Below are positions 11,580 to 26,340 of a stretch of 64,000 nucleotides of DNA, one piece after another. The notes under the pieces were generated by a model. That model had not been told where the DNA came from, ran no database searches, and worked only from the letters and a program-made list of their open reading frames with translations. The position numbers were made by a program, and so were the translations under genes. Numbering within the stretch: position 1 is the stretch's first letter; the number at the start of each line of letters is the position of its first letter. The stretch comes from Pseudomonas sp. G2-4 (GTDB lineage: Bacteria > Pseudomonadota > Gammaproteobacteria > Pseudomonadales > Pseudomonadaceae). Location: positions 4,644,501-4,708,500 of the forward strand of contig NZ_CP125957.1 of assembly GCF_030064125.1 (NCBI RefSeq), in the 5' to 3' direction.

Positions 11580-11585
11580 CTTTCG

Positions 11586-12389
11586 TCAGACTTTGGCCCC
11601 CAGCTCCGCCGACAACCGGGCTGTGACCCCTTTGACCAGGGGAATCAGCTCGGCCATTTTTTCCAGCGGCATGTACGGCACGGTGCTGGCGATGCTGATG
11701 CCAGCGACAATGCGCTTGCCGGCGTCACGAATCGGCGCCGCCACGCAACGAATCGACGGTTCGTTGTCTTCCAGGTCAAACGCATAGCCCCCCGCCACAT
11801 ACTCCACCATCCGTTGCTGGAACTGTTCCCAGGATTGCTCCTGATGCAGGGGCCAGAACTGATTCTTCCCACCGGCCGGTAGGCTGATTTCGTATAGCCT
11901 CTTCCATTGTTCCTGCGAGTCATCGAGCATCAGCGCCTTGCCAATCCCCGTGCGTGCCAGCGGCATGCGATGGCCGACGCGCGAGCGCATTTCCGGGCCG
12001 TTACGCCCCGGATTCTTCAGCAGGTACAAGACCTCGTCGCCCTCGCGAATCGCCAGGTGAACAGTGTCCCCAGTGAGCGCCGACAGTTCGTCCAGGTACG
12101 GCCCCGCCAGGCTCACCAGTGGCAGTTCTTCCCGAGCCTGGAAACCCAGCTCGATCAGCTTCGGCCCCAGCAGGTAGCCCACTTGCGGCACCACACGCAG
12201 GTAACGTTCGTCCACCAGGCAACTGGCGAGGCGATGGGTGGTGCTGCGGGTGGTGCCGATCAGCCGGGCGATTTCCTTCAAGTCACGGGCGCCGCTGGCA
12301 ACCGCCTGCACAACACCCAGGCCGCGCAGCAATGTCTGGGTGCCTGTAGGCGCGGCGTCCTTGGTGATTTTTGGATCGTCTTGCTGCAT
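11586..12389 (-). CDS. IclR-family regulator at the end of the dgo operon
   Basis: A 267-residue IclR regulator. The N-terminal winged helix includes LLRGLGVVQAVASGARDLKEIARLIGTTRSTTHRLASCLVDERYL. The C-terminal effector domain (~100-260) includes DTVHLAIREGDEVLYL, SRVGHRMPLARTGIGKALML and GGYAFDLEDNEPSIRCVAAPI. It follows the MFS gene by 60 bases on the same strand, so it may be co-transcribed with the galactonate genes. It is a candidate to bind the TCCCA-N5-TGGGA element found in front of dgoK and the SDR gene, but the GntR regulator is an alternative. Confidence 0.9.
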   Translation of the reverse strand: MQQDDPKITKDAAPTGTQTLLRGLGVVQAVASGARDLKEIARLIGTTRSTTHRLASCLVDERYLRVVPQVGYLLGPKLIELGFQAREELPLVSLAGPYLDELSALTGDTVHLAIREGDEVLYLLKNPGRNGPEMRSRVGHRMPLARTGIGKALMLDDSQEQWKRLYEISLPAGGKNQFWPLHQEQSWEQFQQRMVEYVAGGYAFDLEDNEPSIRCVAAPIRDAGKRIVAGISIASTVPYMPLEKMAELIPLVKGVTARLSAELGAKV

Positions 12390-12448
12390 ATCCGGCCTTC
12401 AACAGTGAGCGGGGAACGGGCGGCATTATGGTCGCCCGCCCCGTCGGA

Positions 12449-13759
12449 CTACAACTCGATGCGCTCGACCTTCCCCACCAGCAGGATGTAGGACAGCGCG
12501 CCAGCCAATGCCAGAACGGCGATATAGGTGATGGCCGGGGCAAACGAATCGCCGCTGGCGAGAAAACCGATGACGATCGGCGTGGCGATGGCCGCCAGGT
12601 TACCGATGAAGTTGAACACCCCGCCCGTCAGCCCGAGCAACCGCGCCGGGGCCAGTGTCGAGACCAGCGACCAAGTGATCGACGCCAGGCCGTTGCCGAA
12701 GAACGCCAGCGCCAGGAAGGCAATCACCAGCGGCGTCGATTCAACAAAGTTGGCACCGATGATCGCGGTGGAAATCAACAGACCGCCAATGATCGGCAGC
12801 TTGCGGGCAAACCCCACCGTGGCACCGCGACGGATCAGCCAGTCGGAGAAGAACCCGGAACACAACACGCCCACGAACGCTGCGAGAAATGGCAGCGACG
12901 CCAACAGCCCAGACTTGATGAAGTCCATGCCGCGATATTTCACCAGGTAGGTCGGGAACCACGTCAGGAAAAACCACAGCGTGGAGTTGAGGCAGAACTG
13001 GCCCAGGTAAATGCCCCACAACTTGCGTTGGGTCAGGACAATACCCAGGTCGGTCCAGCTGAATTTTGCCTTGGCCTTCGCCGTATCGGCCTGGATATCC
13101 ACCAGCCCGCCGCCTTCGCGAATCAGCTCGATTTCGGCGGCATTGGCGCCTTTGAAATCCCGTGGCTCGCGATACACCGCGTACCAGATCACCGCCCAGA
13201 GAATGCCCACCGCGCCGGTGGCGACAAACACCATGTGCCAACCGAACGCGTGTTGCAGCCACGCCAGTACCGGCGTCAGGAAGGCCAACCCGACGAACTG
13301 CCCGGAGGTGTAGAAACCGATGGCCGTGGCCCGCTCGCGCTCAGGAAACCAAGTGGTAACCACACGGCTGTTGATCGGGTACGCCGGCGCTTCCAGGGCA
13401 CCGACCGCCATGCGCAACACGAATAGCGCAATGAAACTGGCGGCGAACCCCAGCATCACCGTGGCCACCGACCACAACAGCAGTGCCACGCTGTACAGAA
13501 TGCGCGGCGGCACTCGGTCCACCAGCCAGCCACCGGGGATCTGCATGGCGGCGTAGGTCCAGCCGAATGCCGAGAAGATCAGCCCGACATGGATAGGATC
13601 AATACCCAGTTCGCTGGTCAGCGCGGGGGCGGCGATCGAGAGGTTGCTGCGGTCAAGGTAGTTGATCACCACGGTGATGAACAGCAGGACCATGATGAAA
13701 AAACGCTTGCGGCTGGGCGTCACCAACGACGCCTGCGCGCTCAGGGTGTGCGCTTGCAT
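12449..13759 (-). CDS. MFS transporter, galactonate/hexuronate (ACS) type
   Basis: A 436-residue major facilitator with about 12 membrane segments. It starts after a short cytoplasmic N-terminus (SRKRFFIMVLLFITVVINYLDRSNLSIAAPAL). The NYLDRSNLS motif is typical of the anion:cation symporter family that includes the galactonate carrier DgoT and glucarate carrier GudP. Position after dgoD in the same direction makes D-galactonate the likely substrate. A REP pair and a perfect inverted repeat separate it from dgoD and may lower or stabilise expression of the distal part of the transcript. Confidence 0.88.
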   Translation of the reverse strand: MQAHTLSAQASLVTPSRKRFFIMVLLFITVVINYLDRSNLSIAAPALTSELGIDPIHVGLIFSAFGWTYAAMQIPGGWLVDRVPPRILYSVALLLWSVATVMLGFAASFIALFVLRMAVGALEAPAYPINSRVVTTWFPERERATAIGFYTSGQFVGLAFLTPVLAWLQHAFGWHMVFVATGAVGILWAVIWYAVYREPRDFKGANAAEIELIREGGGLVDIQADTAKAKAKFSWTDLGIVLTQRKLWGIYLGQFCLNSTLWFFLTWFPTYLVKYRGMDFIKSGLLASLPFLAAFVGVLCSGFFSDWLIRRGATVGFARKLPIIGGLLISTAIIGANFVESTPLVIAFLALAFFGNGLASITWSLVSTLAPARLLGLTGGVFNFIGNLAAIATPIVIGFLASGDSFAPAITYIAVLALAGALSYILLVGKVERIEL

Positions 13760-13834
13760 GTGCGGTGCCTCTTTTTATGGTTATTGAGGAATCGGGCGAA
13801 TCGAAGAAGATCTTCCTGCTTGCGAAGATCAAAT

Positions 13835-13920
13835 TGTGGGAGCGAGCTTGCTCGCGATGACGGTGTGTCAGTTGGCGAAGGTGTGACTGTCACACCTTCG
13901 CGAGCAGGCTCGCTCCCACA
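13835..13920. repeat. REP pair, type A, between dgoD and the MFS gene
   Basis: Head-to-head copies of the GTGGGAGCGAGC REP. The interior holds a separate perfect inverted repeat at 13875-13901. Confidence 0.9.
13875..13901. repeat. Perfect 12-base inverted repeat inside the REP pair
   Basis: GCGAAGGTGTGA, a 3-base loop CTG, then TCACACCTTCGC. Its right arm runs into the second REP copy. No T-run follows, so it is not a canonical terminator, but the RNA should fold strongly between dgoD and the MFS gene. Confidence 0.8.
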
Positions 13921-13946
13921 AGGGAACCTAATGAGTCAGCGCTGCC

Positions 13947-15095
13947 TCACCACTCGGCAAAACTGCCATCGGCATGGCGCCAGATCGGGTTGCGCCAGCG
14001 GTGGCCGATGGCCGCGCGTTCGATGACGTATTCCTCGTTGATCTCAATGCCCAGGCCCGGGCCATTGGGGATTTTCACGAAGCCTTTGTCGTAGTCGAAT
14101 ACCTGCGGATCCTTGATGTAATCCAACAGGTCGTTGCTCTCGTTGTAATGGATGCCCAGGCTCTGCTCCTGGATGAACGCGTTGTAGCAGACCGCATCCA
14201 GTTGCAGGCACGCCGCCAGGGCGATAGGGCCCAACGGGCAGTGCAGCGCCAGCGCCACGTCGTAGGCCTCGGCCATGTTGGCGATCTTGCGGGTTTCGGT
14301 GATGCCACCGGCGTGGGATGCATCCGGCTGGATGATGTCCACGTAGCCTTCGCTCAGCACGCGCTTGAAATCCCAACGGGAGAACAACCGCTCGCCCAGG
14401 GCAATCGGGGTGCTGGTCAGCGGCGCCAGTTCCTTGAGGGCTTCGTAGTTTTCGCTGAGCACCGGCTCTTCGATGAACATCAGCTTGAAGGGATCGAGTT
14501 CCTTCATCAGCACCTTGGCCATCGGCTTATGGACCCGGCCGTGGAAGTCCACGCCAATGCCGACGTTTGGTCCTACCGCGTCCCGCACCGCTGCCACGTT
14601 GGCCAGGGCCAGGTCGACTTTTTCAAAGGTGTCAAGGAACTGCAGCTCTTCGGTGCCGTTCATCTTCACTGCCGTAAAGCCCCGCGCCACGGCCTCTTTC
14701 GCCGCTCGGGCGGTGTCCGCTGGCCGGTCGCCACCGATCCACGAATACACGCGGATCTTGTCGCGCACCTGACCACCGAGCAAATCGCTGACCGACACGC
14801 CCAAGGCCTTGCCCTTGATATCCCACAACGCCTGGTCGATGCCGGCCAGGGCGCTCATGTGAATGGCGCCACCCCGGTAGAAGCCGCCGCGATAGAGCAC
14901 GGTCCAGATGTCTTCGATGTTGCGTGGGTCTTTGCCGATCAGGTAGTCGGATAGTTCTTCAACGGCAGCCGCCACCGTGTGGGCACGCCCTTCGACCACG
15001 GGCTCGCCCCAACCGGTCACGCCCTCGTCGGTTTCGACCTTGAGGAAGCACCAGCGCGGCGGAACGATAAACGTGGTCAGTTTGGTGATTTTCAT
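13947..15095 (-). CDS. dgoD: D-galactonate dehydratase
   Basis: A 382-residue enolase-superfamily enzyme that converts D-galactonate to 2-dehydro-3-deoxy-D-galactonate. The metal ligands fall at the positions known for E. coli DgoD: Asp183, Glu209 and Glu235. The catalytic His185 and His285 and Glu310 also align ([37 protein letters not shown]). This numbering match gives strong support for galactonate rather than another sugar acid. Third gene of dgoK-dgoA-dgoD-MFS-iclR. Confidence 0.96.
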
Positions 15096-15144
15096 CTTGT
15101 TGTCTCTCTTATCAGATGCAGCGCACAGGGCGCTGGAAAAGTCT

Positions 15145-15765
15145 TCAGTTCAGGGCATTCCACGCGGCCACGTAGGCCTTGGCGCGCACCGCCACCTCAT
15201 CTGCCGTCAGGCCCGGCTTGAACAGCCCGGAGCCCAGGCCGAAACCCTTGACCCCAGCCTCGACGAACACCGCCATGTTGTCCGGGGTAATCCCGCCCAC
15301 CGGTACCAGCACGGTCCCGGCCGGCAGTACCGCAAGCCAGGCCTTGACCACTGCGGGCCCCATTTGCTCGGCCGGGAACATCTTCAGTACATGAGCACCT
15401 TCGGCCAGCGCGGCAAACGCTTCGGTGGGTGTGGCGACGCCTGGCGACAAGTACAGCCCCGCCGCTTTCGCCGCCCGCAATACCTTCGGGTCGCTGTGGG
15501 GCATGACGATCACTTGGCCACCAGCGGCTTTCACCCGTTCGACCTGTTCCGGCGTGAGCACCGTACCGGCACCGATCAGGCAATCGGCGGGCAAGGTACT
15601 GCGCAGGATGCGGATACTTTCGTACGGCTCAGGGGAATTGAGCGGTACTTCGATGACGCGAAATCCGGCGCTGTAAAGGACGTCGCCGATGGCGGCCGCC
15701 TCTTCGGGACGCAAACCGCGCAGGATCGCGATCAGCCCGTTGTGCGCCAGTGCTTGTGTGAGCAT
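15145..15765 (-). CDS. dgoA: 2-dehydro-3-deoxy-6-phosphogalactonate aldolase
   Basis: A 206-residue class I aldolase of the KDPG/KDPGal type that cleaves 2-dehydro-3-deoxy-6-phosphogalactonate to pyruvate and glyceraldehyde 3-phosphate. Family residues are visible: [11 protein letters not shown] (Arg16), [16 protein letters not shown] (Glu39), [21 protein letters not shown], and the Schiff-base lysine Lys128 in [13 protein letters not shown]. The NSPEP stretch and full length fit DgoA rather than Eda. It sits between dgoK and dgoD in one operon. Confidence 0.95.
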
Positions 15766-15784
15766 GTCAGACCTCCAGTCAGGG

Positions 15785-16768
15785 TTAACGCGATGCGGTG
15801 GAGTCGAGCAGCCCGGCCGCCACGGCCAGTTGCCACAAACCCCGTTCGGTGGCCTGTTCGGCCAGGGTCACGCGGGCGAAACCGCAGGCGTCGAGAGCCC
15901 GTTGATAACGGGCGCAGAGTTGGGAATTGCCGATCAGCACCACCGTCGGCAGGTGGATGCTGTCGCGCCGGCGGCGCTGTACCGTGGCCAGCGCCGTCAG
16001 CTCATGGCCGATCAACAGGCCAGAGAGGTAATCCGCCTGGGCGCTGGCACCGAGTTCGCCGGTCAAGCCCAGGCTGCGGGCGCTGAACACGGTGGATAAC
16101 GGACCGATCTGGCCGTCCACCGACAACGCCACCTGGACACCACGATCAAAGGCCTGAGCGTCGAACGCCGCGCCGCGCTGCTGGGTACGGCCGAGAATGC
16201 TGTGGTCGCTGAGCACGGCGAAAATTTCGCCGGTCATGAAGGTGTCGAAATGCACGATGCAGCCACCGGCGACTTCCACCCATTTGGAATGACTACCGGG
16301 CAGACCGATCAGCACCGCTTCGTTCGGCAGGCTGTGCAAGGCGCCGAGCACCTGGGTCTCTTCGCCGCGCATCACGTTGGGTAAGCGCGAACGCTGGATG
16401 ACCCCCGGCACGATGTGCACATCGACACCGCGAAGACTGCGCACGGTTTGTAGGGAATGTCCGAGATTGGCGACGTTGGCGGGCGTGTCGCAGTAAGGCG
16501 CTTCGCGCCAGCCTTGGGCGCTACCGACCATGCCGCAGGCAATGACGGGCAGGCCTGGCTGTGCATCGAGCCAATCGCCGCAGGCCTCGTCGAAGGCCAG
16601 TTCGAAGCCGTCGATGCACACGCGACCGGCCAGGGTTCGCGGCCCGGAGGGCAACTGCATGATCCCCGAGGACAGCGAGCGCTGTTCGAGCACCTCGCCC
16701 CCAGCGGCGAGTTTGTAAGCCCGTAATGAGGTGGTCCCCCAATCGAGCGCAATCAATTGCGCCTGCAT
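15785..16768 (-). CDS. dgoK: 2-dehydro-3-deoxygalactonokinase
   Basis: About 327 residues. DgoK phosphorylates 2-dehydro-3-deoxygalactonate at the 6-hydroxyl. The N-terminal phosphate-binding motif IALDWGTTSLRAYKL, then SSGIMQL, PVIACGMVGSAQGW, VHIVPGV and MRGEETQVLGAL are family signatures; LPGSHSKWVEV is near the middle. The ATG at 16768 is preferred: the upstream GTG at 16777 lies inside the AGGTG ribosome-binding site that serves the ATG at a 6-base spacing. First gene of the galactonate operon, with a clear promoter and operator in front. Confidence 0.95.
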   Translation of the reverse strand: MQAQLIALDWGTTSLRAYKLAAGGEVLEQRSLSSGIMQLPSGPRTLAGRVCIDGFELAFDEACGDWLDAQPGLPVIACGMVGSAQGWREAPYCDTPANVANLGHSLQTVRSLRGVDVHIVPGVIQRSRLPNVMRGEETQVLGALHSLPNEAVLIGLPGSHSKWVEVAGGCIVHFDTFMTGEIFAVLSDHSILGRTQQRGAAFDAQAFDRGVQVALSVDGQIGPLSTVFSARSLGLTGELGASAQADYLSGLLIGHELTALATVQRRRRDSIHLPTVVLIGNSQLCARYQRALDACGFARVTLAEQATERGLWQLAVAAGLLDSTASR

Positions 16769-16808
16769 CCGTTTCACCTGTTCTGTTTATTGGCAGTGAG
16801 TGAGACGG

Positions 16809-16838
16809 ACTATAAACCTGGGCGCAGAAAAATCTCAA
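16809..16838 (-). promoter_or_regulatory. Sigma-70 promoter of the dgoK operon
   Basis: On the minus strand TTGAGA, an 18-base spacer and TATAGT. The same two boxes with the same spacer occur in front of the SDR gene. Transcription should begin near 16802, about 34 bases before dgoK. Confidence 0.75.
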
Positions 16839-16852
16839 TATATAAATATCAC

Positions 16853-16867
16853 TCCCATATATTGGGA
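16853..16867. promoter_or_regulatory. Operator TCCCA-N5-TGGGA upstream of the dgoK promoter
   Basis: TCCCATATATTGGGA, a palindrome with 5-base arms, centred about 58 bases upstream of the predicted dgoK start of transcription. That position suits an activator. A near-identical copy at the same distance lies in front of the SDR gene (23966-23980). It also lies 90 bases before the divergent GST gene. Confidence 0.7.
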
Positions 16868-16957
16868 CTACAAAAACAACAATATAAAGCCAATCGCCAT
16901 TCGCCCGCGACCCTGCTACTTTTTCTGATCGGACGCCTCAGCACTCAGGGAAACGTT

Positions 16958-17590
16958 ATGGGACAACTGTTGAAAATCCTCGGCCGCACTTCCTCTATCA
17001 ACGTCAGAAAAGTCTTGTGGACCTGCCAGGAACTGGAAATCGCCTACGAACGCGAAGACTGGGGCATTGGTTTTTCCTCTACCCATGACCCGGCATTCCT
17101 GGCGCTCAACCCCAACGCCCAGGTGCCGGTGATCATTGATGAAAACGGTGTGCTCTGGGAATCAAATACGATCTGCCGTTATCTGGTGGGCAAGCACGGG
17201 CGCAACGATTTGTTGCCCGCCGAGCCAGCCGCCCGGGCACGTATCGAACAGTGGATGGATTGGCAGGCGACGGAGCTCAACCCGTCATGGGGTTATCCTT
17301 TTTACGCGCTGGTGCGCAAGGATCCGGATTGCCAGGACCCACAGCGAATAGCCGCCGGGATCAAAGGCTGGAACGAGAAGATGGGCCTGCTGGAGCAGCA
17401 GTTGACCCGCACCGGCGCCTACGTGGCCGGCGCGGACTTTTCCCTCGCGGACGTGCTCATCGGCCTGTCCGTACACCGCTGGCGCCAGACGCCCATGGAG
17501 CGTCCCGACTACCCAGCCGTGGCCGCCTACTGCAAACGCCTCGAACAACGGCCGGGGTTTGCCGAGTACGCATCCGCCGCGCACTCATGA
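16958..17590 (+). CDS. Glutathione S-transferase
   Basis: A 210-residue GST. ATG 16958 has AGGGA at a 7-base spacing. The thioredoxin-fold N-terminal domain (MGQLLKILGRTSSINVRKVLWTCQELEIAYERED, NAQVPVIIDENGVLWESNTICRYL) includes the cis-Pro and the ESNTI glutathione-binding motif. The helical C-terminal domain follows (~90-205, FSLADVLIGLSVHRW). It is divergent from dgoK and may share its control region. The substrate is unknown; a second GST of similar type is at 61340-61963. Confidence 0.9.
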   Translation: MGQLLKILGRTSSINVRKVLWTCQELEIAYEREDWGIGFSSTHDPAFLALNPNAQVPVIIDENGVLWESNTICRYLVGKHGRNDLLPAEPAARARIEQWMDWQATELNPSWGYPFYALVRKDPDCQDPQRIAAGIKGWNEKMGLLEQQLTRTGAYVAGADFSLADVLIGLSVHRWRQTPMERPDYPAVAAYCKRLEQRPGFAEYASAAHS

Positions 17591-17595
17591 ACGAC

Positions 17596-18078
17596 TCAGT
17601 TGCCTTGGGCGAAATCCCGTAGCACCTTGCCATCCATTCGGTAGCGCACCCACTCTTCCTGGGGTTGCGCACCGAGGGATTTATAGAACTCGATAGCCGG
17701 TGTGTTCCAGTCCAGCACGCTCCACTCGAAGCGACCGCAATCGTTGTCGCAGGCCACTTTCGCCAGATGGCGCAACAAGGTCTTGCCCGCCCCGCCGCCG
17801 CGCTGTTCAGGCGTGATGTACAGGTCCTCGAGGTACAGGCAGTTGCTGCCCAGCCAAGTGGAATAACTGAAGAAAAATACCGCGAAACCGATCGGCACGC
17901 CGTCACGCAGGCAGATCAACCCGTGGGCGGTCGCGCCCTCGCTGAACAGGCTGCGCTCGATGTCCGCCACACTGGCGATGACTTCGTGGCGGGCCTTTTC
18001 GTAATCGGCCAGCTCAGTGATGAAGGCAAGGATTTGAGGCGCATCGCTGGGTTGCGCAGGACGGATCTCGATCGACAT
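17596..18078 (-). CDS. GNAT-family N-acetyltransferase
   Basis: A 160-residue acetyltransferase of the diamine/amine type. It has the family pattern: RPAQPSDAPQILAFITELADYEK at the start, IGFAVFFFSYSTWLGSNCLYLEDLYITPEQRGGGAGKTLLRHLAKVA in the middle (acetyl-CoA loop Q/RGxGxGK), and a C-terminal IEFYKSLGAQPQEEWVRYRM. This resembles spermidine/spermine or thialysine N-acetyltransferase homologues. It is convergent with the GST gene. Confidence 0.88.
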   Translation of the reverse strand: MSIEIRPAQPSDAPQILAFITELADYEKARHEVIASVADIERSLFSEGATAHGLICLRDGVPIGFAVFFFSYSTWLGSNCLYLEDLYITPEQRGGGAGKTLLRHLAKVACDNDCGRFEWSVLDWNTPAIEFYKSLGAQPQEEWVRYRMDGKVLRDFAQGN

Positions 18079-18255
18079 GAACGGGCCTTGTAGCCAATTG
18101 AAAGCGCCATACTAAGCCGCCAGAGGGCGCTCGTCACACCTCAAGGCAAATTTGAGGGCCGAGCCAACAAGCACCATTCGTCGCCCCCCAGGCACCAACC
18201 CAAATCCAGCGAGGCCCAAGATCAGGCAAGCACTCTAAAAAATGGAGGCGACACC

Positions 18256-18597
18256 ATGATCACTTCAAGGCTGACTGCATTCACATTCGCCACGCTGCTG
18301 TCTTCAATCGCTTTCGCGGCTTCCACCTCCGGCACCGGGCCAACCGACCCGGTGGAGGCGCCCAATTCCCCCGCTACGCAGGGGATGCCCAAGTTGAACA
18401 CCGACGGTACCGGCGGCGGCCTGAACAGTGGCCAGCCACCCGCTACCGGCACCGATCCGCGGGTGCAGGGCAATGACATGGGGCGTCAGGGCGGCTTGAA
18501 TACGCCGGACTCTACAACCCCTGACAATGCCGAGACCGGTGTGGACTCGAAAACCACGACCGGGGGTTCGGGTTCGGAAGGTGGCGCCAGCCAGTAG
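18256..18597 (+). CDS. Small exported Gly/Thr/Pro-rich protein
   Basis: A 113-residue protein with a good ribosome-binding site (GGAGG) and a signal peptide (~1-21, cut after AFAA). The mature part is disordered, low in hydrophobic residues and rich in Gly, Thr, Pro, Asp and Asn (TGGGLNSGQPPATGTDPRV, TTGGSGSEGGASQ). No domain is recognised. It lies 32 bases in front of the Rho-N-like gene in the same direction, probably in one transcript. Function unknown. Confidence 0.65.
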   Translation: MITSRLTAFTFATLLSSIAFAASTSGTGPTDPVEAPNSPATQGMPKLNTDGTGGGLNSGQPPATGTDPRVQGNDMGRQGGLNTPDSTTPDNAETGVDSKTTTGGSGSEGGASQ

Positions 18598-18629
18598 CCT
18601 CTGCTCAGACACTTGAGGAGGAAGATCCC

Positions 18630-19010
18630 ATGCCTCGTGGAAGCAAAGACAAATACTCCGCCGAGCAAAAGCGCAAGGCCGAACACATCGAAGAGAGTTA
18701 TGAGAAGAAAGGCCTGTCCGAGGCCAAGGCCGAGGCACGCGCTTGGGCGACGGTCAACAAACAGTCCGGCGGCGGCGAACGTTCCGGCGGTTCGGGGAAG
18801 GCGAAACCGGCCGTGGAAAAGAAAACCGACCGCAAGGAATCAGCCCGACGCGCCGCCAAGACCCGCGAAGGTCATCCGCGCGCCAGCAAGGCCTCTCATG
18901 AGGCCCAGACGGTGGACAGCCTGATGAAGGAAGCCCGGGCGAAGAATATTTCCGGGCGCTCGAAGATGCGTAAACAAGAGCTGATCGAAGCCCTGCGTAA
19001 GGCGGGATGA
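18630..19010 (+). CDS. Small basic protein with C-terminal Rho-N/SAP-like motif
   Basis: A 126-residue highly charged protein. The start MPRGSKDKYSAEQKRKAEHIEESYEKKGLSEAKAEARAWATVNK resembles a ChaB/KGG-like helical module common in Pseudomonas. A flexible basic linker (~47-90) follows. The C-terminal VDSLMKEARAKNISGRSKMRKQELIEALRKAG is a Rho N-terminal-like helix-extended-loop-helix that binds nucleic acid in relatives. It is often labelled plasmid stabilisation protein without proof. It may bind DNA or RNA under stress. The GGAGGA site sits 7 bases before the ATG. Confidence 0.75.
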   Translation: MPRGSKDKYSAEQKRKAEHIEESYEKKGLSEAKAEARAWATVNKQSGGGERSGGSGKAKPAVEKKTDRKESARRAAKTREGHPRASKASHEAQTVDSLMKEARAKNISGRSKMRKQELIEALRKAG

Positions 19011-19032
19011 TCCTCGGCGTCAGGGAGGACGC

Positions 19033-19128
19033 CATCGCGAGCAAGCTCGCTCCCACAGGGGATCTGCGCTGTGCCGAAGCTCTGGCGCCTGGCACAAAAT
19101 CCTGTGGGAGCGAGCTTGCTCGCGATGG
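19033..19128. repeat. REP pair, type A, in the opposite arrangement
   Basis: Two type A REPs as in other pairs, but with the CCCACAGGGG ends facing inward (tail to tail) rather than outward. It lies between the Rho-N-like gene and araH, which are convergent. Confidence 0.85.
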
Positions 19129-19158
19129 CGGTAGCTCAGTCGCCAGTGATCTCTGTTT

Positions 19159-20127
19159 TCAGCGTTGCTTCAACCGGTCGATCACCACTGCCAGCAGCAG
19201 GATCGAGCCACGGATGACGTACTGGTAGAAGGTGTCAATGTTCTTCAGGTTCATCGCGTTTTCGATGATCGCCAGAATCAACACCCCGGCAATGACGTGG
19301 CGAATCATGCCGATGCCACCGCTCAGCGAAACCCCACCCAGGACACACGCCGAGATCACGGTGAGCTCAAAGCCCTGGCCGATCATCGGTTGGCCCGAGG
19401 TCATGCGCGATGCCAGGATCACACCCGCCAGGGCACCGATCACGCCATGCACGGCGAAGATGATGATCTTGGTGCGATCAACGTTCACCCCCGCCAACAA
19501 CGCCGCTTCCTGGTTGCCACCGATGGCCATGGTATTGCGCCCGTAGGTGGTGTAGTTCAGCAGCCAGCCGAAGAACAGAAAGCACACGATGGTGATCAGG
19601 ATCGGCACCGGCACACCAAACATCTGCCCGTTGCCGAACACGAAGAACGACTCCTGGGACACACCCACCGCTTTGCCGTTGGCAAAGATGTAGGCCAGGC
19701 CGCGGACAATCTGCATGGTCGCCAGTGTGGTAATCAACGCATTGACCCGCAGCTTGGCAATGACGATGCCGTTGATCAAGCCGACGATCAATCCCATCAC
19801 CAGCGCGGCACTGATACCTAGGAATACGCTGTTGGTGTCACGCATTACTACCGCTGCGACCACGCCGGCACAGGCAATCACCGAGCCTACCGACAAGTCG
19901 AAGTGCCCCGACGCCAGGCAATACAACATGGTGCAGGCCGCGATGCCAGTGGTGGAAATCGCCAGGCCCAGGCCGCGCATGTTCAGCGGTGACAGGAAGT
20001 TGTCGATCATCAAGGTGCAGAGCACGAAGATACCGACAGCCGCCAGCAGCATGACCCAGTCGTCCAGGAAACGGCGCAGGTCCAGGGGTTTGCGTGCCGT
20101 TGGCAGTGCATTATTTTGAATGGTCAT
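19159..20127 (-). CDS. araH: Pentose/hexose ABC transporter permease (AraH type)
   Basis: A 322-residue inner-membrane permease with about 9-10 hydrophobic segments, of the AraH/RbsC/MglC family. Characteristic loops are GLGLAISTTGIAACTMLYCLASGHFDLSVGSVIACAGVVAAVV, GLINGIVIAKLRVNALITTLATMQIVRGLAYIFANG and GGVSLSGGIGMIRHVIAGVLIL. It is the last gene of araF-araG-araH on the minus strand, 9 bases after araG. The sugar is L-arabinose by homology to the named family, but D-galactose is equally plausible from the neighbouring dgo genes. Confidence 0.88.
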   Translation of the reverse strand: MTIQNNALPTARKPLDLRRFLDDWVMLLAAVGIFVLCTLMIDNFLSPLNMRGLGLAISTTGIAACTMLYCLASGHFDLSVGSVIACAGVVAAVVMRDTNSVFLGISAALVMGLIVGLINGIVIAKLRVNALITTLATMQIVRGLAYIFANGKAVGVSQESFFVFGNGQMFGVPVPILITIVCFLFFGWLLNYTTYGRNTMAIGGNQEAALLAGVNVDRTKIIIFAVHGVIGALAGVILASRMTSGQPMIGQGFELTVISACVLGGVSLSGGIGMIRHVIAGVLILAIIENAMNLKNIDTFYQYVIRGSILLLAVVIDRLKQR

Positions 20128-20136
20128 GATTACCTC

Positions 20137-21681
20137 TCAGTTCGCCGCGTCGGCAACGCGTTGGCGTGGCAGCGCCAGTTGCAGCAGGTTGGATTCGTTG
20201 GCCTGGTCACGCGGCAATTCGCCACGCATGGTCCCTTCGCAGAGCACCAGGATTCGGTCGGAAATGCCCATCACTTCCATCAGGTCGCTGGACACCACAA
20301 TCACCGCGATACCGTCGGCCGCCAGGTTGTGGATGATCTGGTAGATCTCGGCCTTGGCGCCGATGTCGATGCCGCGGGTGGGCTCATCCAGCAGCAGGAC
20401 CTTCATCGGCATCGACAGCCAGCGACCCAGAATCGCCTTCTGCTGGTTGCCGCCGGACAGGTACATGATTTTCTGCCCCGCCGTCGGGGTCTTCACTTTC
20501 AATGCCTTGATCTGTTTATCGGCGTTGCCCCGCTCCCAATCGCCGCGCAACAGGCAGCCGAGGGCGGAATGAGTCGGACGGGCACTGATGTTGATGTTCT
20601 CGCCCACGCTGCCCAGCGGGATGATGCCTTCCTTCTTGCGATCTTCCGGGCACAGCAGCACGCCAGCCGCGATGGCATCCCGTGGCGAACGCAGCTTCAA
20701 TTCCTTGTCGTGCAGCACCAGGCTTCCCTCGCTCTGGCGCTCCAGGCCACTGAGCAAGCGAAACAGCTCGGTACGACCGGCACCGACCAGCCCGAACAAT
20801 CCAAGGATTTCACCCTTGTGCACCTGGAAACTCACCGGTTCGCGCAAGCCTGGCCCCAGCAGGCCTTTCACCTGCAGCGCCACCTCACCGCGCTCCCGAG
20901 GACGGTAATCATAGATGTCCTGGATATCGCGACCGACCATGCAGGTGACCAACTGGTCGTGGGTCAATTCGCTCATGTCCTCGAAGGTCCGTACGTAGCG
21001 GCCGTCCTTGAACACCGTCACCGCATTACAGATGCGGAACACCTCTTCCATCCGGTGACTGACGTACAGCACCACTTTGCCCTCGTCCCGCAGACGGGCA
21101 ATGATCGCCATCAAGCGGTCGATTTCCCGCGCCGAAAGGCTGCTGGTGGGTTCGTCGAAGGCAATGACATGGGCGCCGCGGGACAAGGCCTTGGCGATTT
21201 CCACCAGTTGACGCTGGCCGAGGGACAGGCGACCGACTTTCTCTAGCGGGTCGATTTCGTCGGCCAGGCCTTTGAGCAGCTTCAACGCCCGCTGGCGCAG
21301 CAGCCCTCGATTGACCAGGCCGAAACGGGCCGGCAAATGCCCAAGGAACAGGTTTTCGGCAACGGTCATTTCCGGCACCAGGTGCAACTCCTGGTGGATC
21401 ACCGCCACGCCGCTGGCAATGCTGTCGGCGGTGGATTTGAAGGCCATCGTCTGCTCGCCGATCTGCAAATCGCCGCTGCTCGGGATGTACGCACCGCCGA
21501 GGATCTTCAACAACGTGGACTTGCCCGCGCCGTTCTCGCCCATCAAGGCATGGACCTGCCCCGGATGAGCCACAAAACTGATATTGGCCAGCGCCTGCAC
21601 GCCGGGAAAGGATTTGCCGATCCCGTTGAACCGCAAGCTGCCACCGATATTGTGTTGCTGTGTCGCTGTTTGCGCTTGCAT
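20137..21681 (-). CDS. araG: Sugar ABC transporter ATP-binding protein (AraG type)
   Basis: A 514-residue ATPase with two ABC domains. The first has Walker A GENGAGKSTLLKILGG, signature LSLGQRQLVEIAKAL and Walker B VIAFDEPTSSLS. The second has the degenerate Walker A GLVGAGRTELFRLLSG, signature LSGGNQQKAILGRWL and VLLLDEPTRGID. The double-ATPase layout is standard for carbohydrate uptake class 2 transporters. ATG 21681 follows a GAGGTGG site; an upstream GTG lies within that site. It lies between araF and araH. Confidence 0.93.
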   Translation of the reverse strand: MQAQTATQQHNIGGSLRFNGIGKSFPGVQALANISFVAHPGQVHALMGENGAGKSTLLKILGGAYIPSSGDLQIGEQTMAFKSTADSIASGVAVIHQELHLVPEMTVAENLFLGHLPARFGLVNRGLLRQRALKLLKGLADEIDPLEKVGRLSLGQRQLVEIAKALSRGAHVIAFDEPTSSLSAREIDRLMAIIARLRDEGKVVLYVSHRMEEVFRICNAVTVFKDGRYVRTFEDMSELTHDQLVTCMVGRDIQDIYDYRPRERGEVALQVKGLLGPGLREPVSFQVHKGEILGLFGLVGAGRTELFRLLSGLERQSEGSLVLHDKELKLRSPRDAIAAGVLLCPEDRKKEGIIPLGSVGENINISARPTHSALGCLLRGDWERGNADKQIKALKVKTPTAGQKIMYLSGGNQQKAILGRWLSMPMKVLLLDEPTRGIDIGAKAEIYQIIHNLAADGIAVIVVSSDLMEVMGISDRILVLCEGTMRGELPRDQANESNLLQLALPRQRVADAAN

Positions 21682-21746
21682 AACCACCTCGAACTCACAG
21701 AGATCAGCGGCCCCGTCGCCAGGGCCGCTTTTGACTCAACCAGCCG

Positions 21747-22751
21747 TCAGTTCCACAGGCCGATTTTTTCCAGCTCTTGCTTGAAGTTCTCCCGAGTGAT
21801 CAGCGTCACCTCGTCCATGGCGGTGTACTTCGGCGGTTCCTTGCCGGTGGTGACCCACTCGAACATCATTTCGGCGGTCTTGTAGCCTTCGATGTGCGGG
21901 CTAGGCAGCATCGAACCGAAGAAACCGCTGTTGGGCTTTTTCAGTTCGCCGATGGCGTCGGTGCCGTTGATGCCGATACCGATCACGTTGGTCGCCGCAA
22001 AACCGGCACTTTCAGTGGCGCGCACACCACCCAGTACCGTGTTGTCATTCATGCCGCCGATGATCAGGTTTTTCGCCGCGCTCGGCAGCTTGACCAAGGC
22101 CGAGTTGGTGGCATCCATGCTGCCGGGTACATCGAGGGTTTTCAGCGCGGTGAAAAGGATGTGATCGTCCGGCATGCCGGCTTTCTTCAGGGCGTCGACC
22201 GAACCGTCGGTGCGTTTCTTGCCAGTGTCCAGTTCGTTGTAGGTGTTGATCACAGCGTAGGTGTCTTTCCAGTCCCAGCCGCGTTTTTTCGCTTCAGCCG
22301 CCATGGCGCCGCCCTGCTTCTGGCCCACTTCAAAGGCAGCCATGCCCAGGTACGGCACGTCTTCCATGAACTTGCCATCGGAACCGACGAAGCGGTCATC
22401 GACGGCGATCACTTTCATGTCGTTGAGTTTGGCCTTGGCCATGATGGCTGGGCCGAGAGACACGTCCGGCGGGCAGATCACAAAGCCCTTGGCGCCGTTG
22501 GCGGCGAGGCTGTCGATGGCCGAGAGGGTCTTCTCGCCGTCGGGCACGGCGATCTTGATCACCTTGAAGCCCCTGTCCTTTCCCGCCTTTTCGGCGAACG
22601 CCCATTCGGTCTGGAACCAGGGTTCCTCGGCCTGCTTGACCAGAAAACCGATTTTCACTTCTTCAGCCGCCAGCAAGCTGCTGCTGAGGCTGACCGCGGT
22701 AACCGCCAGAGCGGCACGGCACAGGGAACGGATCCCACGACGATGATTCAT
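21747..22751 (-). CDS. araF: Sugar ABC transporter periplasmic binding protein (AraF type)
   Basis: A 334-residue binding protein. ATG 22751 is preceded by AAGGAG. An upstream in-frame extension would run through the control region and is rejected. A signal peptide (~1-31, SSSLLAAEE) is followed by the periplasmic binding fold: VKIGFLVKQAEEPWFQTEWAFAEKAGKDRGF, GAKGFVICPPDVSLGPAIMAKAKLNDMKVIAVDDRFV and GGMNDNTVLGGVRATES. This is the L-arabinose/D-galactose/D-fucose binding protein group. It has its own control region and an A-rich Crc-type motif next to the ribosome-binding site. Confidence 0.92.
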   Translation of the reverse strand: MNHRRGIRSLCRAALAVTAVSLSSSLLAAEEVKIGFLVKQAEEPWFQTEWAFAEKAGKDRGFKVIKIAVPDGEKTLSAIDSLAANGAKGFVICPPDVSLGPAIMAKAKLNDMKVIAVDDRFVGSDGKFMEDVPYLGMAAFEVGQKQGGAMAAEAKKRGWDWKDTYAVINTYNELDTGKKRTDGSVDALKKAGMPDDHILFTALKTLDVPGSMDATNSALVKLPSAAKNLIIGGMNDNTVLGGVRATESAGFAATNVIGIGINGTDAIGELKKPNSGFFGSMLPSPHIEGYKTAEMMFEWVTTGKEPPKYTAMDEVTLITRENFKQELEKIGLWN

Positions 22752-22761
22752 AGTTGACTCC

Positions 22762-22769
22762 TTGTTTTT
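22762..22769 (-). promoter_or_regulatory. Crc/Hfq-type A-rich motif beside the araF ribosome-binding site
   Basis: On the transcript AAAAACAA stands directly before AAGGAG of araF, inside a longer A-run. It fits the AANAANAA motif that Hfq and Crc bind in Pseudomonas to repress translation of secondary carbon-source genes. Confidence 0.55.
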
Positions 22770-22869
22770 TTTATTGAAAGCCAAACGACCAGGGTTCTGC
22801 TCCACCGTCGGTGGAAATGCGCAGGCTGGGCGGTCACAGCAAGTTGCTACACAGCATAGGCCTAAATAG

Positions 22870-22882
22870 TCATATCGTATGA
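22870..22882. promoter_or_regulatory. GntR-type operator upstream of araF
   Basis: TCATATCGTATGA, arms TCATA and TATGA 3 bases apart, 119 bases before araF and inside the gap after the SDR stop. Read on the minus strand it lies in AATCATCATACGAT, matching AATCATCATATGAT in front of gntR. Confidence 0.6.
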
Positions 22883-22926
22883 TGATTGGATTACAGGCGA
22901 AGTTTCCGACTGCAACCCAGAAATAT

Positions 22927-23745
22927 TCAGTCGTGGTACATGACCGAACGTCCACCATCGATGGTGATGCATGAGGCATTGATAAAAGGTGCTTCATCGC
23001 TGGCCAGGAACACGGCCGTCATTGCCACTTCGATCGGTTGCCCGATTCGCCGTGGCGGGTGCAGATCCAGCGCACGCTGACGTTCGGCATGGGGATCGGC
23101 AAAGCCGTTCCAGTAGTCGACGTTCAGTTGGGTTTCGATATAACCCGGTGCGATGGCGTTGACGCGTACCCCTTTGGGCGCGTATTCGATGCCCAGGGCG
23201 CGGGTCAGGCCGAGCAGGCCGTGCTTGGCCACCGGGTAAGGGAAACATCCGGGAATGATGTGGGACGAATGGGTCGACGCGATGTTGATAATGCTGCCCA
23301 CGCCCTGCTCGAGCATCTGCGGCAATACCGCCTTGCAGCCGTACCAGGCGCCATCCAGGTCGATGGCGAAGCAACGACGCCAGTCTTCTTCGGTCATTTC
23401 CAGCGGGTCACGGAATACATTGACGCCAGCACAGTTCACCAACACGTCGATGCGACCGTGCAGCTCGATGGCAAGCCGGGCCATCGCGTGCAGGTCCTGC
23501 TGGTTCGACACATCGGCTTTCAGCGCTTGCACATCCGCGCCGCGCTCACGCCACTGGACAGCCACCGTTTCGACCTTTTCGGCCTGAATGTCACTGATCA
23601 CCAGCCGTGCCTGTTGCGAAGCGAACGCGGCGACGATCGCCTCGCCAATACCCTGGGCAGCGCCGGTCAGCAACACCACCTTGTTTTTCAGGCGCTCGCC
23701 CTTCGGTGGCTCGGGCACCGGCTGCAAGACAAGAGGCTCAGCCAT
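22927..23745 (-). CDS. SDR sugar 1-dehydrogenase (galactose/arabinose dehydrogenase type)
   Basis: A 272-residue short-chain dehydrogenase. It has the cofactor motif LTGAAQGIGEA with Asp in VISDIQAEK (NAD preference), NCAG, the Ser in NIASTHSSH and the catalytic Tyr-x-x-x-Lys in YPVAKHG. The C-terminal half (GYIETQLNVDYWNGFADPHAERQRALDLHPPRRIG) is like bacterial galactose, arabinose or fucose 1-dehydrogenases. It most likely oxidises the imported aldose to the 1,4- or 1,5-lactone for the SMP-30 lactonase. The start overlaps the stop of a 43-codon leader ORF. The dgoK-like promoter is in front. Substrate specificity is inferred. Confidence 0.87.
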   Translation of the reverse strand: MAEPLVLQPVPEPPKGERLKNKVVLLTGAAQGIGEAIVAAFASQQARLVISDIQAEKVETVAVQWRERGADVQALKADVSNQQDLHAMARLAIELHGRIDVLVNCAGVNVFRDPLEMTEEDWRRCFAIDLDGAWYGCKAVLPQMLEQGVGSIINIASTHSSHIIPGCFPYPVAKHGLLGLTRALGIEYAPKGVRVNAIAPGYIETQLNVDYWNGFADPHAERQRALDLHPPRRIGQPIEVAMTAVFLASDEAPFINASCITIDGGRSVMYHD

Positions 23746-23869
23746 GGATCAAGATTCCTGTTCGCAGGCACGACGAAAACCGGGCATCCAGGGATGACCG
23801 GTCAAAAGGCGTCGCGGAAAACAGTGAATCGCGTACGCCGCCAGGGCGTACGGGGGAAGATCGTTGCAT
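23738..23869 (-). CDS. Possible 43-codon leader ORF coupled to the SDR gene
   Basis: An open frame begins at ATG 23869 behind AACAGGTGAAG, nearly the same ribosome-binding site as dgoK, and ends with a TGA inside the first three codons of the SDR gene (ATGGCTGA). It is in a different frame from the SDR gene. The predicted 43 residues begin MQRSSPVRPGG and have no known domain. It could be a leader peptide that couples translation to the SDR gene, a relic of dgoK-type translation signals, or chance. No independent coding evidence beyond the start signals. Confidence 0.4.
   Translation of the reverse strand: MQRSSPVRPGGVRDSLFSATPFDRSSLDARFSSCLRTGILIHG
23832..23852. repeat. Perfect hairpin within the SDR leader
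   Basis: CGTACGCC, a 5-base loop, then GGCGTACG. It lies early in the 43-codon ORF. No T-run follows, so attenuation by termination is not indicated. Confidence 0.7.
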
Positions 23870-23882
23870 CACTTCACCTGTT

Positions 23883-23890
23883 TTGTTTTT
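23883..23890 (-). promoter_or_regulatory. Crc/Hfq-type A-rich motif beside the SDR leader start
   Basis: On the transcript AAAAACAA lies 3 bases before the CAGGTG ribosome-binding site of the leader ORF, within an A-rich run. It fits AANAANAA. The same motif is at araF. Confidence 0.55.
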
Positions 23891-23921
23891 TTAGTGTGAG
23901 TGCGTATTGCTGATGGAGCCG

Positions 23922-23951
23922 ACTATAAACCCGACCGCCGAACAATCTCAA
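23922..23951 (-). promoter_or_regulatory. Sigma-70 promoter of the SDR gene
   Basis: TTGAGA, 18-base spacer, TATAGT on the minus strand, identical boxes and spacing to the dgoK promoter. Start of transcription near 23915. Confidence 0.75.
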
Positions 23952-23965
23952 TATATATATTTACA

Positions 23966-23980
23966 TCCCATATTTTGGGA
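23966..23980. promoter_or_regulatory. Operator TCCCA-N5-TGGGA upstream of the SDR promoter
   Basis: TCCCATATTTTGGGA, one base different from the dgoK operator, at the same 45-base distance from GACTATAAAC. It touches the stop codon of the SMP-30 lactonase gene. Confidence 0.7.
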
Positions 23981-23981
23981 T

Positions 23982-24857
23982 TTAACCCGCAAACCGGGTA
24001 CACGCCACACCCGGCACATCAACCCGCATCGACAGCACCGCGCCGTCCAGTGGATGACCCAACGGGCTCGCCGCACTGGTGATGTACAAGGTCTTGAGGT
24101 CTTCGCCACCGAACACACAACTGGTAGGCCGGCTGACGGGCAATTCGATCACCCGGTCGACCTGGCCTTGCGGATTCAATCGCAGCAGGCAGCTGCCATC
24201 CCAGCGCGCGTTCCAGATGTAACCTCGGGCATCCATCGCCGAACCATCCGGGCCGCCACGAGGGTGGGGACCGAACCAGGCCTCGGCCGGCGCCAGATGG
24301 CCTTCAGGGTAGATAAAGTGCCGGTACAACGTGCCATCAAGGCTTTCGCCGAAATACACCGTGGTGCCATCGGGGCTCCACAGCAAGGTGTTCGGGATGC
24401 CCAGCCCGCGTAACAACGGCATGACACGGCCATCGCCCCCGACGCGAAACAGGCCACCGGACCGCCGCTCGACAGGCAAGTCTTCGCCCTCTTCACCGAT
24501 ATTGTTCTGCATGGTGCCGAGCCAGAGCTGGCCCAGGGCATCACAACGGGCTTCGTTGGGACGATTGCCGGGTTGCGGATCGGCCATGCACAGCAGGGAC
24601 AGGCGCGGTTCCAGGCCCGGCGAATCCAGGTCCAGACGGTAGACACCACTGCTCAGCGTCACCAGTGCATCACCACTCTGCGTCGGGATGAAAGCGGACA
24701 CGTGCTCGGGCATCTGCCAGATCTGCACATTGGCGCCGATCAACCGCAGCGCCTGCTTGCCGGCGATATCGACCCAGTACAAGGCCTGGGTCGGCTCATC
24801 CCAGAACGGCCCCTCACCCAATGTCGCCCGATGTTCCGTAACAGCCGTCCACTTCAT
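23982..24857 (-). CDS. SMP-30/gluconolactonase family sugar lactonase
   Basis: A 291-residue beta-propeller lactonase. Metal-ligand motifs are visible: LGEGPFWDEPTQALYWVDI (the first Glu is a metal ligand), RPNEARCDALGQLWLGTM, SPDGTTVYFGESLDG and GGPDGSAMDARGYIWNARWDG (Asp ligand). It should hydrolyse the galactono- or arabinono-lactone made by the SDR enzyme to the aldonate used by DgoD. Its start overlaps the stop of gntR by 4 bases, so the regulator and lactonase are translationally coupled. Confidence 0.9.
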   Translation of the reverse strand: MKWTAVTEHRATLGEGPFWDEPTQALYWVDIAGKQALRLIGANVQIWQMPEHVSAFIPTQSGDALVTLSSGVYRLDLDSPGLEPRLSLLCMADPQPGNRPNEARCDALGQLWLGTMQNNIGEEGEDLPVERRSGGLFRVGGDGRVMPLLRGLGIPNTLLWSPDGTTVYFGESLDGTLYRHFIYPEGHLAPAEAWFGPHPRGGPDGSAMDARGYIWNARWDGSCLLRLNPQGQVDRVIELPVSRPTSCVFGGEDLKTLYITSAASPLGHPLDGAVLSMRVDVPGVACTRFAG

Positions 24858-25600
24858 TGAAACCTCCCGTTCCCAGTTTGCCCGGTGGCGTCTGTTCGAC
24901 CGGCCATGACATTAGGGTAAAAGCGCTTGATGGCCAGGTCAGCATTATCGATCAAAGTCATGCAGGCCCATACGCCCCGCGCCGCATCTCGGGCCGCGAT
25001 GGCGTCGGCGATATCCTTGTGGATAGGCAAGGTACGGCGCAGTTCATCCGGGTCGGCAGCCGACACCTCGAACGATACCGCCAGCAGCGCGCCCAGGGCC
25101 GGGACCATTTGTTCGATGAATTGATTATGGCTGGCGGCGAGGATGCACTCGTGGAAGAACTGGTCGGCGCGGTTGTAATCGGCGCCGCTGTCCACGGCCC
25201 GCTCCAGCGCATGGTAGGCCAGGCGGATCGCCTGCACCTGATCGGCCGTGGCCCGTTCGCAGGCCCAGCGCACCGCCATCGGCTCGATGGTACGGCGCAG
25301 GTCCAGCAGGTCATCGACAAAGTTTTCCGGCAGGCCGTTGCGTGACAGCCAGCCGACCACCTGTGGATCGAACAGGTTCCAGCGCCGCACCGGCAACACA
25401 CGAGTGCCGACTTTTGGTCCGACTTCCAGCATGCCTTTGGCCACCAGGGTCTTGATCGCCTCGCGAATGACCGTGCGGCTGACGCCCAGTTGCTGGCCCA
25501 GGTCCGCCTCAACCTTGATGGTCTGCCCAGGCTTGACCCCGCCGGCGGCTATCCAGCCCCCCAGCCAATCGACGGTCGATGCATGAAAACTGCTGGACAT
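24854..25600 (-). CDS. GntR/FadR-family sugar-acid regulator (DgoR-like)
   Basis: A 248-residue regulator. The N-terminal winged helix includes VEADLGQQLGVSRTVIREAIKTLVAKGMLEVGPKVGTRVLP. The C-terminal FCD effector domain (~90-230) includes LLDLRRTIEPMAVRWACERA, NRADQFFHECILAASHNQF and LPIHKDIADAI with the usual Asp/His metal-site positions. The group includes E. coli DgoR, the galactonate repressor. ATG 25600 is preferred over GTG 25606. Its promoter carries an operator-like palindrome between -35 and -10, suggesting self-repression released by a sugar acid. Confidence 0.88.
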   Translation of the reverse strand: MSSSFHASTVDWLGGWIAAGGVKPGQTIKVEADLGQQLGVSRTVIREAIKTLVAKGMLEVGPKVGTRVLPVRRWNLFDPQVVGWLSRNGLPENFVDDLLDLRRTIEPMAVRWACERATADQVQAIRLAYHALERAVDSGADYNRADQFFHECILAASHNQFIEQMVPALGALLAVSFEVSAADPDELRRTLPIHKDIADAIAARDAARGVWACMTLIDNADLAIKRFYPNVMAGRTDATGQTGNGRFQ

Positions 25601-25632
25601 GAACACCCCTGGGCCACTCTTATTGGAGGCCC

Positions 25633-25661
25633 ACGCTAATCATCATATGATTGGGTGTCAA
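25633..25661 (-). promoter_or_regulatory. gntR promoter
   Basis: On the minus strand a perfect TTGACA is followed after 17 bases by TAGCGT, a weak -10. The palindrome ATCATATGAT lies in the spacer. Confidence 0.55.
25642..25651. promoter_or_regulatory. GntR-type operator in its own promoter
   Basis: ATCATATGAT, a perfect 10-base palindrome between the -35 and -10 boxes. Its extended form AATCATCATATGAT matches the araF site. Confidence 0.65.
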
Positions 25662-25685
25662 TTTGAATTTTTGCGGCATCACACC

Positions 25686-25774
25686 TGTGGGAGCGAGCCT
25701 GCTCGCGATAACGGTGTGTCAGTTAAGGCTAGGTTGACGATGCTGCCGTCATCGCGAGCAAGCTCGCTCCCACA
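25686..25774. repeat. REP pair, type A
   Basis: Head-to-head GTGGGAGCGAGC copies between the gntR promoter and the convergent-side end of the DUF1285 gene. Confidence 0.9.
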
Positions 25775-25779
25775 AAGGC

Positions 25780-26340
25780 TCAGGGTTCCAGGCCGATAGG
25801 GAAGAACACGCCGCCACTCCACACGCCCAACCAGCGCTGCCCATTGATCTCGCGCCTGACCGCCAGCTCCACCAGTTGGTAGAACACATTGCGATGGATC
25901 AGCGCTTCGAGATTGCTGCGCACATGCACGTAGGGTGCAGGTTCCTGGGTCTGGGGATCGATCACCACCCGCATCGGATGGTCGCCGCCGGCCTCAGTGG
26001 TTTCCTCGACATTCGTCGTGAAGCGCAACAACTGCCCTTCCCCCTCGCCTTCAACCTCAAGGGTCACGGCCACGAACGGCGCATCGTCGACCTTGATGCC
26101 GACTTTTTCCACAGGGGTAATCAGGAAGTAATCATCGCCGTCGCGGCGGATGATGGTAGAGAACAGCTTGACCATCGGCTTACGCCCGATGGGCGTGCCC
26201 AGGTAGTACCAGGTGCCGTCCCGGGCGATGCGCATGTCGATGTCGCCGCAGAAGTCAGGGTTCCACAAGTGCACCGGCGGCAGCCCTTTGGTCTTGGGGA
26301 TCTGCCCCAGCAAGTCATTGGCTTTTTGCGGTCCGCTCAT
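25780..26340 (-). CDS. DUF1285 protein
   Basis: A 186-residue cytoplasmic protein of the DUF1285 family. It is recognisable by PPVHLWNPDFCGDIDMRIARDGTWYYLGTPIGRKPMVKLFSTIIRRDGDDYFLITPVEKVGI and the C-terminal NVFYQLVELAVRREINGQRWLGVWSGGVFFPIG. Family structures have a double beta-barrel-like fold; the function is not established. It runs 15 bases behind the DUF4823 lipoprotein gene, so the two are probably one transcript. Confidence 0.9.
   Translation of the reverse strand: MSGPQKANDLLGQIPKTKGLPPVHLWNPDFCGDIDMRIARDGTWYYLGTPIGRKPMVKLFSTIIRRDGDDYFLITPVEKVGIKVDDAPFVAVTLEVEGEGEGQLLRFTTNVEETTEAGGDHPMRVVIDPQTQEPAPYVHVRSNLEALIHRNVFYQLVELAVRREINGQRWLGVWSGGVFFPIGLEP

Follow-up and report, generated by a model that had tools for sequence, protein, structure and literature searches.

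A promoter module shared by the dgo and SDR-araFGH operons of Pseudomonas points to a probable galactose regulon under an IclR-family protein

The D-galactonate genes of Escherichia coli are arranged in the order dgoRKADT. The functions encoded by dgoK, dgoA, dgoD and dgoT stand under a local regulator in that organism, the GntR/FadR-type repressor DgoR, with inverted repeats at the promoter (PMC7674646), and FadR-type sites consist of TKGT/ACMA boxes (PMC4494728). In the present study, a stretch of 64,000 nucleotides from Pseudomonas sp. G2-4 was analysed (hereafter the window, to which all coordinates refer), in which dgoK, dgoA, dgoD and a dgoT-like gene likewise lie beside a local regulator gene. 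In contrast to the E. coli system, the regulator belongs to the IclR family, the putative operator carries TCCCA/TGGGA arms in place of TKGT/ACMA boxes, and the same promoter module also stands before another operon, which would serve the uptake and oxidation of sugar. The gene content also resembles the De Ley-Doudoroff pathway, of which DgoD, DgoK and DgoA are present, accompanied by a dehydrogenase and a lactonase-family protein (SDR and SMP-30, both assigned by family) and a sugar transporter.

Several findings support the view that these two operons are regulated together. First, dgoK-dgoA-dgoD-dgoT-iclR and SDR-araF-araG-araH are each headed by a copy of the same 60-base module (modules 1 and 2, Table 1). 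The ungapped identity of 49/60 reported by an earlier sequence-only reading was recovered on recomputation, and the runner-up match to either copy reached 30/60 over the whole window and both strands. The TTGAGA and TATAGT boxes with an 18-base spacer, proposed in the same reading, were found on the minus strand of both copies, and the palindrome TCCCATATWTTGGGA lies 45 bases from GACTATAAAC each time, as had been claimed. A genome search for palindrome and promoter boxes, also suggested there, placed the promoter core TATTGAGA-N14-GGTTTATAGTC (up to three mismatches) at the two modules and nowhere else, with no match for the control; no third regulon member was thus found in this genome with the promoter core at that threshold. 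The bare motif TCCCAN5TGGGA occurs at four exact places genome-wide, against three for a reversed control, and two of them (1230487 and 6483748) lie outside the promoter-core matches. This chance-level frequency is what a coincidence or a common repeat would produce, but the promoter core is confined to two places, 49/60 stands against 30/60, and the module is kept across the genus; chance or repeat was ruled out by the uniqueness of the core together with its conservation among 119 genomes, and its probability is negligible.

Second, the module is conserved in relatives. Protein searches of 119 Pseudomonas genomes gave matches for dgoK in 74, IclR in 73, GntR in 44 and SDR in 54 (IclR and GntR being scored at E<=1e-50), and TCCCATATWTTGGGA with at most one mismatch was present in 62. 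A module at fixed spacing precedes dgoK in 73 of the 74 dgoK genomes, with no mismatch in the dyad in 41, one in 27, two in four and three in one, and a module precedes the SDR gene in 49/54. None was seen upstream of gntR (0/42), SMP-30 (0/46) or araF (0/62, one of which had no upstream sequence). The regions fetched comprised 94 around dyad matches outside the window's genome, 40 around dgoK or iclR and 20 around outgroup, SDR or GntR genes, and in the 45 genomes that gave no dgoK match the module was sought by the dyad search only (up to one mismatch). The sequence-only reading had made its proposal depend on conservation in relatives, and the outcome is in its favour, the same putative operator being kept at both operons where the regulator is present. 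Four of the five SDR exceptions (G006, G037, G044 and G070) have the SDR gene downstream of a module-bearing dgoK in a single gene run, and in G023 the geometry is right and the dyad degenerate. A species-wide scan for half the dyad plus TTGAGA returned at least 120 loci; among the matches listed, 63 lay before dgoK, 44 before SDR and 13 before neither, these last being one complete module at the edge of a locus and 12 loci without the remainder of the module.

A duplicated promoter cassette, kept without common regulation, might also account for the likeness, which does reach into the leader: two 30-base blocks around the ribosome sites agree at 24/30 (next best in the window, 18/30), at a spacing from the module that differs between the operons. 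The claim that the surroundings of the modules are unrelated is therefore not quite accurate. However, in 113 distinct modules, selected with TTGAGA near the expected position, the dyad, the half-site described below and the -10 box are kept, whereas about 13 bases between the -35 and -10 boxes and the flanks vary, and in distant relatives the dyad precedes iclR. We regard duplication without common regulation as highly improbable.

Third, the IclR protein encoded at 11586-12389 is very probably the regulator of both modules, as judged from comparative data. Its domains HTH_IclR (43.9 bits, cut-off 22) and IclR_C (101.1 bits, cut-off 24) place it in the IclR family, and are shared with KdgR, IclR, PcaR/PcaU/PobR and BhcR. 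The best NCBIfam models were BhcR (105 bits, cut-off 350), KdgR (102.6, cut-off 275) and PcaR (89, cut-off 284.75), and because these scores are far below the cut-offs the protein is not one of the regulators just named; the top sequence match among solved chains, 5w1e, is a 'putative transcriptional regulator'. IclR was matched in 72 of the 73 genomes with a module. Among the 119 genomes every one with an IclR match also has a dgoK match, the 45 genomes lacking dgoK lacking IclR as well. The remaining module genome, G080, has an intact dgoKADT module and an iclR copy split between two frames. Depending on the genome, iclR adjoins either operon: in nine genomes (G017, G030, G048, G059, G067, G090, G095, G099 and G101) it lies behind SDR-araFGH, dgoKADT being found on a separate contig or at a distance of more than 1.5 Mb, and the module is kept at both operons. 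Beyond this set, with a cut-off of E<=1e-55, IclR relatives were found in 2/274 genomes by class (own genome counted) and in 10/341 by order (own genome and five more of the genus counted). In a genome of a sister genus (G710) and in three from a different family of the same order (G390, G562 and G642), the cluster iclR-dgoK-dgoA-dgoD opens with an IclR relative of 49-50% identity and is preceded by a perfect TCCCAN5TGGGA, and in G001 (IclR 55%) a dyad with two mismatches and the half-site precede iclR. All eight IclR proteins aligned share an identical putative recognition helix, TRSTTHRL. Taken together, co-occurrence, relatives and recognition helix strongly support the earlier suggestion that one regulator, this protein, links both units. 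As separate observations, the split iclR of G080 may reflect a sequencing error or decay, and in G390, G562 and G642 the -10 box, located by eye, leaves so little room before the iclR start codon that an almost leaderless transcript is possible.

Several points weigh against a single regulator acting through this module. Owing to kinship among the compared genomes, the counts represent non-independent events. G001 is the sole dgoK genome without a module before dgoK (its homologue is 45% identical), and G018 is a true exception, with an SMP30-SDR-araFGH cluster that has no module before SDR and may be under a different regulator. Outside the window's genome, 14 of 98 dyad matches with at most one mismatch, two of them exact, lie near none of the compared genes and were taken as chance, so that the dyad alone is not specific. 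In addition, the left part of a second dyad is not kept as TCCCA, and the proximal element is therefore a half-site at most.

The sequence-only reading had left room for another regulator, and one such rival is the GntR protein of the neighbouring unit. The gntR-SMP30 unit adjoins module 2 upstream on the same strand, with one base between the SMP-30 stop codon and the palindrome, and the E. coli dgo genes are controlled by the GntR/FadR-type DgoR (PMC7674646). Nevertheless, GntR is without a match in 29 of the 73 module genomes (present in 44), seven genomes carry gntR-SMP30-araFGH and lack both the module and a matching SDR, and GntR has a separate dyad, AATCAT-N3-ATGATT, derived from gntR upstream regions. 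With at most one mismatch, this motif was found before 38/42 gntR genes and before dgoK in 0/73, unlike what DgoR-like regulation of dgo would entail. With up to three mismatches, it precedes araF in 43/43 genomes with GntR and in 1/18 without (G021, the contig of which ends inside the SMP-30 gene), and elsewhere it was seen before dgoK in 5/73, SDR in 1/54, SMP-30 in 2/46 and iclR in 0/68. Absence, dissociation and its own motif are the grounds on which GntR was rejected as the module binder, and regulation of both modules by this protein is very unlikely. The two copies of the motif in the window, one before gntR and one in the SDR-araF gap, are likely a GntR operator pair; there are thus two regulators with two motifs, and araFGH is probably under both.

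Herein, we propose that both modules act as operator and promoter for the one IclR-family regulator. The spacing is constant in 113/113 distinct modules, with TGAGA exactly 20 bp from the TGGGA of the dyad. At the same 20 bp the four distant relatives, whose boxes and spacers were read by eye, have TTGAGA in one and TTGGGA in three, and the spacer from half-site to -10 box is 17 as opposed to 18 in the window's modules; this agreement despite a different spacer suggests that TGAGA is more than a -35 box, namely an operator half-site. One dimer would occupy the perfect dyad TCCCA-N5-TGGGA at about -58 (counted from a transcription start site assumed 7 nucleotides past the -10 box), and a second subunit or dimer would read TGAGA two helical turns (20 bp) downstream, within the -35 hexamer. 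In this way the regulator would determine jointly whether RNA polymerase reaches dgoKADT-iclR and SDR-araFGH, and would therefore control its own gene too. Most likely it would act by repression, lifted when the regulator binds an intermediate formed as galactose or galactonate is broken down.

The sequence-only reading took the placement of the palindrome ahead of the -35 box as a hint of activation; the position stands, but the inference is weak because the operator half-site sits in the -35 hexamer. The constant spacing does not decide the sign, since it follows from operator phasing and sigma-70 geometry. Strain SBW25 presumably belongs to the type with iclR beside SDR-araFGH and not beside dgo, and for this reason the dgoKAD construct considered next was probably without iclR. 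That construct, dgoKAD with its native promoter, was moved into P. putida KT2440 for use of galactose, with long lags of 52 and 26 h (PMC6927180), which suggests a promoter active in the absence of iclR, provided that the module was part of the cloned promoter and that KT2440 has no equivalent regulator. On the basis of this transplant and of the undecisive spacing, we lean to repression, which is modestly favoured over activation. The same IclR protein might instead be an activator, in which case RNA polymerase would be contacted by a dimer near -58 together with a subunit near -38. A dyad upstream of -35 and an invariant spacing would agree with this, and PcaR/PcaU/PobR, which act as activators, are among the best NCBIfam matches, far under the cut-off. 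Two further points tell against repression: the strict geometry with a strong distal dyad and a weak proximal half-site would fit an activator as well, and the promoters of the distant relatives appear by eye to be poorer matches to the sigma-70 consensus, which would suit activation. By contrast, the half-site overlaps -35, and the P. putida transplant speaks for a promoter that works with a construct probably lacking iclR, even if the long lags leave room (PMC6927180). We hold activation to be a lesser but real possibility, and the combination of this IclR protein with a repressor role to have about an even chance.

With respect to function, D-galactose would be taken up by AraFGH, oxidised by the SDR enzyme, and then dehydrated, phosphorylated and cleaved by DgoD, DgoK and DgoA, the SMP-30 lactonase being supplied by the adjoining gntR unit. 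In G006 and G070, dgoK-A-D-SMP30-SDR-araF follow one module as a single gene run (with iclR after SDR-araFGH in G006), and because of this arrangement the regulon probably serves D-galactose via galactonate, i.e. the De Ley-Doudoroff pathway. The proposed dehydrogenase departs from the described pathway, for the P. fluorescens galactose dehydrogenase sequenced in 1989 is reportedly of another family than the present SDR. Galactose dehydrogenase and galactonolactonase have been called not yet identified in an article whose reference list holds the 1989 sequencing of the P. fluorescens enzyme (PMC6927180), and this SDR and SMP-30 are candidates for them. The same SDR and transporter may also serve the use of L-arabinose; AraFGH was induced by root exudates in three strains (PMC8079746).

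No description of this regulator or operator was found in the literature searched, subscription journals and regulon databases being outside its scope. The present system would be a new regulon of a familiar type, in which an IclR protein is joined to galactose genes, and, if true, it is useful and not surprising in kind. For the use of galactose and galactonate in many pseudomonads, to which the E. coli DgoR model seemingly does not apply, it offers a candidate for the regulator as well as for the operator, and it provides an example of two regulators with separate motifs converging on one transporter operon. A more far-reaching reading, in which an undescribed IclR galactose regulon combines the dyad with a phase-locked -35 half-site, araFGH is wired to two unrelated regulators, and the terminator-like leader hairpin described below, lying within a translated reading frame, adds attenuation to the SDR-araFGH transcript, seems unlikely to us; it is similarly doubtful that, within this reading, the IclR module and the SDR gene came together into the place between SMP-30 and araF, over an older GntR operator.

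Table 1. Positions of the modules, putative operators and genes in the window
Feature	Coordinates	Strand	Remarks
Module 1, before dgoK	16808..16867	-	TCCCAATATATGGGA-N14-TTGAGA-N18-TATAGT-C
Module 1 operator palindrome (putative)	16853..16867	-	centre about -58 from the assumed start site
Module 1 -35 box TTGAGA	16833..16838	-	TGAGA, proposed operator half-site, 20 bp from palindrome TGGGA
Module 1 -10 box TATAGT	16809..16814	-	
Module 2, before SDR gene	23921..23980	-	TCCCAAAATATGGGA-N14-TTGAGA-N18-TATAGT-C
Module 2 operator palindrome (putative)	23966..23980	-	
Module 2 -35 box TTGAGA	23946..23951	-	contains proposed operator half-site TGAGA
Module 2 -10 box TATAGT	23922..23927	-	
dgoK leader and ribosome site block	16773..16802	-	24/30 like SDR leader
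SDR leader and ribosome site block	23873..23902	-	
IclR-family regulator, final gene of dgo cluster	11586..12389	-	proposed binder of both modules
dgoT-like D-galactonate MFS transporter	12449..13759	-	TIGR00893 above cut-off
dgoD, galactonate dehydratase	13947..15095	-	NF010624, 708.9 bits, cut-off 311
dgoA	15145..15765	-	NF006600 above cut-off
dgoK, 2-keto-3-deoxygalactonokinase	15785..16768	-	PF05035, 329.8 bits
araH-like sugar ABC permease	19159..20127	-	named from position next to araG, without domain scan
araG, sugar ABC ATPase	20137..21687	-	NF008442, 812.8 bits, cut-off 689
araF-like sugar-binding protein	21747..22751	-	approximate start, picked by eye inside longer reading frame
SDR dehydrogenase	22927..23745	-	proposed D-galactose (and/or L-arabinose) 1-dehydrogenase, putative substrate
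SMP-30 family lactonase, gntR unit	23982..24857	-	putative lactonase role
GntR/FCD regulator	24854..25606	-	on this evidence not the module binder
Proposed GntR operator AATCAT-N3-ATGATT, before gntR	25638..25652	.	
Second GntR-type dyad, SDR-araF gap	22873..22887	.	2 mismatches

The leader of the SDR gene has features of its own. Of 60 distinct long SDR leaders of relatives, 53 retain a hairpin, CCGGNCATC-N4-GATGNCCGG, mostly followed by four to seven T, and this hairpin could be an attenuator; that of the window (23780-23801) is followed by no more than four T and was not predicted as a terminator. The hairpin sits inside a short open reading frame (ORF), the end of which falls at two fixed positions near the SDR start in 51/53. 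In the window this is a 43-codon ORF (23738-23869, minus strand) that begins at the ribosome site conserved in the SDR leader, with a stop that overlaps the SDR start, and in other species SDR itself begins directly at that site. A conserved leader peptide was considered and rejected, the frame being open past the hairpin in 52/53, hardly above another frame; because the other two frames are open in 49/53 and 26/53, the openness is no evidence for translation. An Rfam scan of 11000-26000 gave zero matches at the gathering score. In both leaders, an A-rich stretch beside the ribosome site resembles a Crc/Hfq catabolite-repression target.

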